DNA of 64,000 bases from Deltaproteobacteria bacterium HGW-Deltaproteobacteria-15 (GTDB taxonomy: Bacteria > Desulfobacterota > DSM-4660 > Desulfatiglandales > HGW-15). The notes beneath the pieces are model-generated. The model did not search any database. It was not told the origin of the DNA and saw nothing but the letters and a program-made list of their open reading frames with translations. The first letter of the stretch is position 1. Every line of letters begins with the position of its first letter. The stretch is taken from NCBI GenBank assembly GCA_002840535.1, contig PHBH01000028.1:109932-173931 (forward strand), given 5' to 3'. Positions 6,824 to 25,488 of the stretch are shown one piece after another. The translations under genes were made by a program, and so were the position numbers.

Positions 6824-8113
6824 TTATCTTCTCCCGGAAAGACGCGCAAGGGTTCGGGTGGAGATCCCCAGCAGAAGGCCCGCAACCATCACTTGGTTGA
6901 GCATCGATGTTCGGACCGGACCGAATTCCCGCCATCGCCTTGCCGAGGTGATTATCGCGGCAGGCGCGGTTTCGACGCGGCCTTTTTTCAAGAGGCGACG
7001 CACCAGTAAGAAATCCTCACCCAGCGGGACCTCCGGGAATCCGCCCGCTGCCTCAAAGACCGATTTCTTCATGAAAAGGCCCTGATCCCCATAGGGCAGT
7101 CTGAGTATTCTACTCCTCATATTGGTGAGGAATTCGATGGCTCTCATGAGCGGTGTCCTGAGATCGGTTCGAAAGAGGAATGCGCCTGCTACCACCTCAG
7201 GGCTCATGAGCGTGTCAAATACATGCTCCACATAGGATCGGGGCAGGCAGGAATCGGCATGGAGGAAGAGCAGCACATCGCCCCTGGCTCGCTTAGCACC
7301 CGCATTCTGCTGCAAAGCTCGCCCTTTTCGGGTCTCCACTATGCAGGCGCCTGCCATGGCCGCCCTTGCCTGGGTGGAGTCTTTACTTCCCCCATCAACT
7401 ACGATGACCTCGGCATTGCATCCCGCGGCGGAGCGAATCGTCTTCTCGATATGCTCCTGTTCGTTCAGGGAAGGAATGATCACGGAGAGGTAAGGTTTCT
7501 TCTCTTCCCATTCAGGCAGGATCGCCCTCAGATCTTCCGGATCGTCGATGTCGGTCAGCGTTCCCAGGAGATGGACCCTGAGTCCTTGGACCTTTGCTCT
7601 TTGAATAGTCGTTTCAAGTACCGATTCGGTCCCCCATGGCATGTCTTCGAAAAGATCCGCCGGCCTCCTGAGCCCCACGAGCCAGTACCCGCCGTCCGTA
7701 CTCGGCCCGAGAACGAGATCTCTGTCTTCAAGATTGCTGAAGGCCTCTGCAAGGTGGGAAGATGTAAGCCCGGGTATATCCGTCCCGTGAAGCACAACCC
7801 TTCGGCAGCCGTCCTGGAACGGTTCATCCAGGGCAGCCTTCATCCGTTTCCCCAGATCTCCACCTTTTTGCATCGAGAAGAGGAAGCCGGGACCGAGCCA
7901 GCGGTTCATCTTCCGTTTGGTGGACCCGTCGAAGCAGACCTCTACATCCACCCTGCGGTCGGAAGAGAACCTTCGAACCTGGGAGAGGGTCTCCTCCGTG
8001 AGCCGGCGCTGGAGTTCCGCGGCTCTGGCTGAGCCGAGCCGTTGAATCAGCCTCGTCTTGACCTTTCCCGGTACAGGGTACCGGCCGAATACGATCAGCC
8101 GGTCAGGGTGCAT
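6824..8113 (-). CDS. Fusion of TIGR04282-type (DUF2064/MobA-like) and TIGR04283-type family-2 glycosyltransferases, arsenosugar-locus type
   Basis: N-half: IVFGRYPVPGKVKTRLI...LVLGPSTDGGYWLVGL; C-half: LSVIIPSLNEQEHIEKTI...VIVVDGGSKDST...LFLHADSCLP; adjacent to arsS. Confidence 0.87.
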   Translation of the reverse strand: MHPDRLIVFGRYPVPGKVKTRLIQRLGSARAAELQRRLTEETLSQVRRFSSDRRVDVEVCFDGSTKRKMNRWLGPGFLFSMQKGGDLGKRMKAALDEPFQDGCRRVVLHGTDIPGLTSSHLAEAFSNLEDRDLVLGPSTDGGYWLVGLRRPADLFEDMPWGTESVLETTIQRAKVQGLRVHLLGTLTDIDDPEDLRAILPEWEEKKPYLSVIIPSLNEQEHIEKTIRSAAGCNAEVIVVDGGSKDSTQARAAMAGACIVETRKGRALQQNAGAKRARGDVLLFLHADSCLPRSYVEHVFDTLMSPEVVAGAFLFRTDLRTPLMRAIEFLTNMRSRILRLPYGDQGLFMKKSVFEAAGGFPEVPLGEDFLLVRRLLKKGRVETAPAAIITSARRWREFGPVRTSMLNQVMVAGLLLGISTRTLARLSGRR

Positions 8114-8266
8114 TCCAGCCTCTTGATCTCAGGCGCTATGTAAAGCATCGTGATCAGCATCCGTCATGGTTCCACTCTTTTAGTACTGCCACTAAGACAC
8201 AAAGACACCAAGAAAAGAAATTGTGCTCCTTTGTGTCCTGGTGCCTTTGTGGCGGCCTTCTCCCGA

Positions 8267-8282
8267 GACCCGAACTCAGGCC
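8267..8282 (-). promoter_or_regulatory. Candidate bacterial SECIS apical hairpin downstream of the in-frame TGA of arsS
   Basis: Minus strand GGCCUG-AGUU-CGGGUC: 6-bp stem (with GU pairs), GU-containing loop, starting 14 nt after the TGA. Confidence 0.55.
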
Positions 8283-9247
8283 TTTATGGATCCGCCTCAA
8301 GTAAACCCGGCCCCTGCAGTGCATGTGTAGCAGTGCTCCGCAGTCGCAATCGGCGTGCCCGGGAGAGGAGGACGTTGTGCTTCCGAAACATGAACTCTTC
8401 GTCCGCCCATAGGCAGGTCCGCGGCCAGATTGAAATCACAATCGTACAGGTAACCTTCCCAGGATACCGACACGAGGGATCTGCACATCACCCCTGCCAC
8501 AGCGCAAGGGTTGAAAGCTGAGGCGAGCCTCTGCAGGTAAGGGTCCAGATTGCCCGACTCCCTCAGCCATCGGCGAAACCGACCCAGGGGAGCATTTGCA
8601 AACGTGAAGAGATTGTGGAAAGAAAGGGACCATTTTTTCTGAAGGATTTCTCTGAATCTTTTTTCGGCCTGGCCCTGATCCGGGGGCAGAAAGGCGCCCG
8701 CCGGATTGGACACGAGATCGAGCTCATACTCGGACCCCTCCAGTCCATATCCCGCCTCATTGAGCTTTTTAATGGCCATCAGACTCGCCTGAAAAACCCC
8801 CCTGCCTCTTTGGGAATCGGTCTGCTGTTCATTCAGAGATGGAAAAGAGGCCACGATCGCCACGCGGTGACGTTTCAGTAGATCGAAAATCCGTTCCCCG
8901 GTTCGGCTGGAAAGGGCAGACAGGTTGGAGCGGAATAGGATCTTGCACGGCAGCGCTGCCAGCCCTTCGATAAGAACGTCTATCCAGGGGTTTAGTTCAG
9001 GGGCGCCTCCTGTGATATCCACCACGGGGAATCGTCCTCTCTCCGCATACACGACGACTTCCGACATGGTCTTCGGATCCATGACCTCGGTGCGGTCCGG
9101 TCCCGCGCTCAGGTGGCAGTGGTTGCACGTCTGATTGCAGAGGAAGCCCACGTTTATCTGCAACGTATCGCTATTCTTACGTTCCAGGCTGAGCCCGTTC
9201 CCCGCAAGGGTGCTGCGGAAAGGGAGGATTGGACCGGGCCGCATCAC
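8276..9247 (-). CDS. arsS: Arsenosugar biosynthesis radical SAM selenoprotein ArsS; TGA at 8297-8299 read as Sec, true stop TGA 8276-8278
   Basis: Radical SAM CNQTCNHC; C-term HCYTCTAGAGFT-[TGA]-GGSIKA* aligns with the family HCxxCTAGAGSSCGG motif, placing TGA at the conserved Cys. ORF caller ends at 8297. Confidence 0.82.
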
Positions 9248-9576
9248 ATACCCATCTTTTCAGCGATGTTTCTCATCTGAACACCATGCACGAGGGAGGC
9301 GCCCCCCCGGATGGCGGTAGCCACATGAATCGCCTCGGTCATTTCTGCCGGATTCGACCCCTTTTCCAGACAGGTCTTCGTGTAAGCGTCAATGCAGTAA
9401 GGGCATTGGACGGCATGCGCTACGGCAAGCGCTATCAAGGCCTTTTCCCTTTCGGTGAGATTTCCTTCCGCAAAAACCGACGCGTAGTAGTCAAAGAACT
9501 TGGCCGCCAACTCAGGGGCCTCTTTCCCGATCTCCTCGAATTTCATAAGATCCTGCGGCTTGTAATAAGTGTCCAT
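9244..9576 (-). CDS. Arsenosugar biosynthesis-associated peroxidase-like (AhpD/CMD) protein
   Basis: AhpD-like CPYCIDAYTK motif and ALIALAVAHAVQCPYC; stop overlaps arsS start. Confidence 0.87.
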   Translation of the reverse strand: MDTYYKPQDLMKFEEIGKEAPELAAKFFDYYASVFAEGNLTEREKALIALAVAHAVQCPYCIDAYTKTCLEKGSNPAEMTEAIHVATAIRGGASLVHGVQMRNIAEKMGM

Positions 9577-23097: not shown

Positions 23098-25488
23098 TCA
23101 CCTGTCAATATCCGGCAATATGTAATCCATGGAGCCGTTGATGGCGATCAGGTCGGCGATGGTTCCTCCCACCGCCAGCAGCGGGATGGCCTGGACGTTC
23201 GCAAAACCCGGGCCCCGTATCCGCATGCGATATGCCATGTTCAGGCCGTCGCTCACCACGTAATACCCCTGTTCGCCTCGAGGCACCTCGGAGGCGGCGT
23301 ATGCTTCCCCTTCAGGAATCTTCGGCCCCCTCGTGACATTGATGAAGTGGTGGATAAGGCTCTCGATGTCCCGAAGCGTGTCTTTCTTGTCAGGCACAAC
23401 ATACCTGTAGTCGTCCGAGATATACCGTCCCGATGGCATCTTCGCCGCCGCCTGCTCTATGATCCGGAGGCTCTGGCGCATCTCCTCGAACCGCACCAGA
23501 AAGCGTGCGTAGCAATCTCCCTCCGTTTCCGTCGGCACTTCAAAGTCGAACGTTTCATAGGCCGAGTAGGGAATATTTTTCCGAAGATCCCATTTGACTC
23601 CGGATGCGCGCAGATTGGGGCCGGTCACCCCCATCTCCATGGCATCCCGGGCTGAGAGCCGGCCGATGCCCCGGGTTCGCATCCGGAAGACCGGGTTTTT
23701 CCTGATCAACGTCTCATATTCCTTCAGCCGCGCAGGGAAGATCCTGGTAAACTCGTCGATCGGCTCCTTCCATCCCTCGGGAAGATCCATGGCCACGCCT
23801 CCGATCCGAAACCACTCCGGGTGCAGCCTGCCGCCGGTGATCAACTCGGCAATGTCCATGATCTTTTCACGCTCGCGAAATGCATAGAAATTGGGCGACA
23901 TGGCCCCGGTGTCATGGGCAAATGTCGCAAACCAGACCAGGTGGTTGCTGATCCTGTAGAATTCCGAGAGCATTACCCGGATGAACTGCGCCCTTTCAGG
24001 GACCTTTATGCCCGCAAGCTTTTCCACAGCCTCGACATAGGCCAGTTCATTGGCCGCGCCCGCGAGGTAGTCCACCCGGTCAGTGTAGGGAATGAACTGA
24101 TGCCACGATTGGCGCTCCCCTATTTTTTCAGCGGCCCTGTGGTGATATCCGATGTCCATTTCCAGGGCCCTGATTTCCTCACCATGCACCGTGGCGATAA
24201 AGCGCAGCAGACCGTGGGTGCTGATGTGGTGGGGGCCTATGTTCAGGACGAACTCGTCCTCGCCGAGTTCCCTCTTCAGATACAAACCTCCGTCCAGGGG
24301 CTGGTGCTTTCGTGCATCCTCTTCCGTGTAAGGCGCCATCGCGGTTGCCCGGCCCGGATAGCTCTTGCGCAAGGGATGCCCTTCCCAGTCGTGCGGCATG
24401 AGAATGCGTCGCAGGTTCGGATGTCCCTGGAAACGGATTCCGAACATGTCGAAGACCTCCCGCTCATACCAGTCAGCCGAAGGCCAGATGTCGGTAATGG
24501 TCCTTGTCACCGGGTCCCTTCCGGACAAACCCACCTTCAATCGGACGCGGCTGGCCGATTCGAAGGAGAGCAACTGATAGACGAGCGTATAGTCCGTGTA
24601 GGCATGACGGTTACGGCGGCTTGATTCGTCGATCGCAGTCAGGTCATCGAGGCGCAAGAATCCGGCGGTTGCATCGGTTTTCAGGAAACGAAGAACATCC
24701 TTTGCCTGCGCTTCAACCACATGCACGGTCAGCATGTCGGAGGTTTGGGCCTGAACCGTCACTGCACTGCCGAATTTCTCCTGGAGAACGCGGCTGAGGG
24801 AATGGTCTCTTTCGCTGAGCGCAACACTTTGCGCTGTGGGTGTCCACATCAAGTCGGACCGGCTGGACCAGAATTCGGGGGGCGTGACGGAGGTGCCTCG
24901 CGTAGCCGTCCCGAGGTAACCCGGACCGCGAGAGTCTCTGCTTTTGGTGTGGCCGTCGACCAGAATCGATTTTTGTGTTCCCTGGGTTCCTCCACCGAGG
25001 TGGAAAATGGATCGGGTGGGCTTTTCCGATTTGATCTTTTCCTGAAGAAGAATCAGGGACTGCTCAACAGCTTCGGGCCGGGGCGGGCACCCGGGAATGT
25101 ACACATCCACGGGCAATATCTGATCCACCCCCTGGACCACGCTGTACGCATCGTACATGCCTCCGGAATTGGAGCATGATCCCATGGAGATCACCCACTT
25201 GGGCTCGGGCATCTGCTCGTACAAACGCAGCACGATGGGCGCGACTTTCTTGAAGACGGTGCCGGAGACGATCAACAGATCGGATTGACGCGGTGATCCC
25301 CTCAGCACCTCCGCGCCGAAACGGGCGAGATCATAGCGTGAAGTGAATGCGGCTGCTTCTTCCACAAAACAGCAGGACAGACCGAAGAACAAGGGCCAAA
25401 GGCTGTATTGCCTCGACCAGTTGATCAGGAAATCGGCTTTGCTCAGCAGGATGTCTTGTGCTTTGTGTTTGTAGCGGTGGGACCCCAC
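23098..25488 (-). CDS. nuoBCD: Fused NADH-quinone oxidoreductase subunit B/C/D
   Basis: N-term NuoB ([35 protein letters not shown]), middle NuoC ([39 protein letters not shown]), C-term NuoD ([25 protein letters not shown]). Confidence 0.95.

Follow-up and report, generated by a model that had tools for sequence, protein, structure and literature searches.

The in-frame UGA at positions 8297-8299 on the minus strand of the window, the 64,000-nucleotide stretch of DNA that was analysed, is very probably decoded as selenocysteine (Sec), and sequence comparison indicates that the predicted product is an ArsS protein with a near-terminal Sec. The minus-strand open reading frame 9244-8300 was assigned to ArsS by profile search (TIGR04167; 374 bits against a cut-off of 300), with a nearly full-length match covering model positions 2-303 of 303 and with both the DUF3641 and Radical_SAM Pfam domains present. 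Read through the UGA, arsS occupies positions 8279-9244 (minus strand), followed by a stop codon at 8276-8278, and would encode an arsenosugar biosynthesis radical SAM selenoprotein of about 322 amino acids. Its most likely start is the ATG at 9244-9242, which overlaps the stop codon of the upstream gene as TGATG (9246-9242) and replaces the GTG at 9247 proposed in the initial annotation. According to Cheng et al. 2021, cited in PMC12159101, ArsS is a radical SAM enzyme responsible for arsenic adenosylation during the formation of oxo-arsenosugars.

The genes on either side of arsS lie on the same strand. The upstream neighbour (9244-9576, minus strand) encodes a Cys-type (CPYC) arsenosugar biosynthesis-associated peroxidase-like protein (TIGR04169; 197 bits against a cut-off of 120), and the downstream gene (6824-8113, minus strand) encodes a fused arsenosugar glycosyltransferase matching TIGR04282 and TIGR04283 (214 and 229.5 bits, both above cut-off). 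All three genes belong to families named by NCBI for arsenosugar biosynthesis.

The minus strand reads EHCYTCTAGAGFT, TGA (8297-8299), GGSIKA and TGA (8276-8278), and translation of the arsS frame through the first TGA gives HCYTCTAGAGFT-U-GGSIKA before the second TGA. The UGA corresponds to residue 317 (alignment numbering) and is aligned to Cys or TGA in homologues. Among non-redundant sequences this codon was TGA in 33 (window included) and Cys in 48; no other residue was seen at the position among motif-bearing loci, and column 317 held C or U in every row of a 53-row alignment. The frame 3' of the TGA was also retained in the Sec homologues, mostly as GG[AS]I and closing equally far downstream in most rows, with TGA or TAG at the place of the true stop codon in most homologue rows. 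In five relatives from genomes of the same family (L023-L027) this codon was likewise TGA; GGA[IV].x came next, and the frame closed with TGA or TAG. Both the coordinates and the alignment therefore agree with the initial annotation, which had placed the TGA at a conserved Cys position with the frame continuing to 8276-8278. Its description of the selenoprotein as hidden by standard ORF calling is right where ORFs are called mechanically and not beyond that, since annotation of TIGR04167 as a selenoprotein family already exists.

The machinery required for Sec insertion, which had been predicted to be encoded elsewhere, was found in the genome. Profile searches of the assembly contigs (6.98 Mb in 106 contigs, a draft with an estimated contamination of 7.9%) recovered selA (619 bits), selB (391 bits) and selD (378 bits), and a tRNA-Sec with the anticodon UCA (73.6 bits) was present in the same genome. 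The selD gene carries an in-frame TGA of its own (GAGUASK). In base composition, the sel and arsM loci were like the window and unlike unrelated controls. One of the two arsM genes of the genome (L129, C3:46449-47234) also contains an in-frame TGA, within YTGUVAGAI; this fits UxxG, the listed motif of Sec-type arsenite methyltransferase, an enzyme of a known kind. SelB-like and tRNA-Sec-like matches on contig C29, considered as a second Sec system, proved to be EF-Tu beside tRNA-Trp, and several other tRNA-Sec matches in the genome were tRNA-Ser and other ordinary tRNAs. The initial annotation had named two grounds on which its reading would fall, a genome lacking selABCD and tRNA-Sec, or homologues lacking Cys or Sec at the aligned position; with selA, selB, selD and tRNA-Sec present and Cys or Sec in every homologue, neither applies.

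Two other readings of the UGA were weighed against this evidence. Mechanical ORF calling ends the gene at 8297-8299, as would be expected if the codon were an ordinary stop and ArsS were shortened at its C-terminus; this is very improbable given that the downstream frame, the Cys/Sec column and the hairpin described below are conserved in dozens of homologues and that the genome holds the full Sec machinery. Insertion of another amino acid, through a Trp code or near-cognate suppression, is compatible with the reading frame taken by itself, yet the aligned residue is Cys and never Trp, the genome encodes a tRNA-Sec with the anticodon UCA, and the second UGA works as a stop, since the relatives L024 and L025 have TAG there. 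We regard such readthrough as vanishingly improbable.

A predicted SECIS hairpin (8266-8283, minus strand) follows the UGA. The sequence GGCCUG-AGUU-CGGGUC spans 8282 to 8267, with the hairpin beginning 13-14 nt after the UGA, and RNA folding lengthened the stem to 7 bp (8283-8266). Bacterial SECIS elements are described as having a loop of 3-9 nt, a stem of 4-16 bp, a G in the first two loop positions and a spacing of 16-37 nt (PMC13188914). The window hairpin lies within all four limits, with a 4-nt loop (A-G-U-U) containing the G, a 7-bp stem and 20 nt from UGA to loop, and in loop, stem and spacing agrees with the bSECIS model (Zhang and Gladyshev 2005) as quoted in that review. Unlike the model, the 3' half of the hairpin lies past the coding region and the natural stop codon is inside it, the UGA at 8276-8278 taking up the final two bases of the 5' stem strand plus the first loop base.

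Taken alone, the window hairpin did not exceed shuffled sequence in stability (z -0.28; 74 of 200 shuffles folded as well), and its significance therefore rests on the comparison of homologues. The mean minimum free energy at the same offset was -8.5 kcal/mol for the 33 TGA sequences compared to -1.9 kcal/mol for the 48 Cys homologues, and the loop was AGUU, AGGU or AGUC in 25 of the 33 Sec sequences. On the ungapped Sec alignment, 73.7% of cells were paired, a value reached in none of 500 shuffles, and pairing was best in register and dropped on either side when the hairpin was slid. The covariation score was 0.291 compared to 0.192 for shuffled alignments, with both partners of the two outer stem pairs changed in 7 and 10 rows (GC/AU/UA/CG); the count of further pair types in the hairpin was not above shuffles. 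RNAalifold returned zero consensus pairs on the ungapped SECIS alignment, which included rows of differing loop length, some Sec rows having 3- or 5-nt loops out of alignment register. The claim that a SECIS-like hairpin lies 14 nt downstream of the UGA is supported by this recurrence in Sec homologues and absence in Cys homologues.

The overlap with the stop codon and the lack of an RNAalifold consensus would both suit a hairpin conserved as coding and stop-codon context, with Sec inserted via some other signal. This is very improbable: the outer pairs covary although their 3' side lies beyond the stop codon, and the Cys homologues are without the hairpin. Stop context by itself is also insufficient to account for the conservation, since three homologues (L060, L064 and L074) have no stop codon at the site and still fold a hairpin. 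With the hairpin read as a SECIS element, SelB carrying Sec-tRNA(UCA) would bind it just 3' of the UGA and deliver Sec to 8297-8299, after which the ribosome would add GGSIKA and terminate at the second UGA within the hairpin. The product would be ArsS, an arsenic-adenosylating radical SAM enzyme of the route to arsenosugars, in which Sec takes the position that a C-terminal Cys usually occupies. That the natural stop within the SECIS element links Sec incorporation at the first UGA with correct termination at the second is conceivable though rather unlikely; if true, one RNA element would be built around two UGA codons read in opposite ways.

The Cys of the radical SAM CxxxCxxC motif (C37, C41 and C44) were invariant in the 53-row alignment, as were C255, C270, C306 and C309. 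Together with position 317, this invariant set points to an auxiliary cluster or a redox site. The predicted structure of ArsS was confident overall (pLDDT 92.5) except for residues 318-323, and its fold matches in the PDB were generic radical SAM enzymes, none of them specific. We can only speculate that the Sec binds arsenic or, close to an auxiliary Fe-S cluster, serves as a ligand or reductant. The initial proposal that Sec would alter the substrate or arsenic-sulfur chemistry found no support, the Cys homologues belonging to the same NCBI equivalog family.

Cys-type ArsS proteins (from Bacteroidota, Nitrospirota, Acidobacteriota and others) share their domain layout and the invariant Cys set with the window protein, but typically end in GSSCGG and have no SECIS hairpin, whereas the Sec-type of the window has GFTUGG and the hairpin. 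In the tree the Sec rows grouped together on one side, interrupted by just one Cys row, from Geobacteraceae (L079, 4001-4936). This sequence keeps GFT and has GFTCGG, with TGT for TGA, and the simplest reading is one Sec-to-Cys replacement in Geobacteraceae inside the Sec group. Among the relatives whose arsS is of the Sec type is a cultured one, Geomonas limicola (L078).

Additional partial copies of arsS were observed. A decayed second arsS lies on contig C69 of the same genome (L036, 1311-1760; around 23634-24083), where a TIGR04169-like gene start runs into a frameshifted ArsS C-terminus in which the TGA remains; its hairpin is strong (CCCCUG-AGUU-CAGGGG) and at the same 14-nt offset from the TGA. 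A similar remnant with similar neighbours occurs in another genome of the family (L029, 1300-1900; G015), so the second locus may have begun to decay or spread long ago. A further locus (L027, 1336-1992; G006) has a peroxidase-like N-terminus and the C-terminal half of a Sec-type ArsS fused in one reading frame, reflecting a deletion or an assembly error, and L073 has a stop inside the aligned ArsS span.

That TIGR04167-type ArsS includes selenoproteins, as initially stated, is borne out by reviews of the prokaryotic selenoproteome and by the NCBI family name. Those reviews include a 'Radical SAM domain protein, TIGR04167' (PMC13188914, PMC9312934), the newer of them (PMC13188914) giving the motif GxxU with Zhang and Gladyshev 2005 as reference 13, and NCBI names the family arsenosugar biosynthesis radical SAM '(seleno)protein ArsS'. 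A literature search on ArsS as a selenoprotein returned no paper directly on the subject. The window protein, a full-length match above cut-off whose G-F-T-U fits the listed GxxU, differs in nothing of substance from this family. Given the review entry and the NCBI name, the identification is right but ordinary, the selenoprotein family being already in databases and literature. The small additions are the stop codon in the hairpin, the Sec side of the tree with its one Sec-to-Cys replacement, and the decayed second arsS that keeps both UGA and hairpin. The annotation of one gene is corrected, and the genome provides a well-supported added case of selenium use in arsenic metabolism, with ArsS and one ArsM copy both apparently Sec-bearing. 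The natural occurrence of ArsS in both a Sec and a Cys type makes a direct comparison of the benefit of Sec to the enzyme possible.
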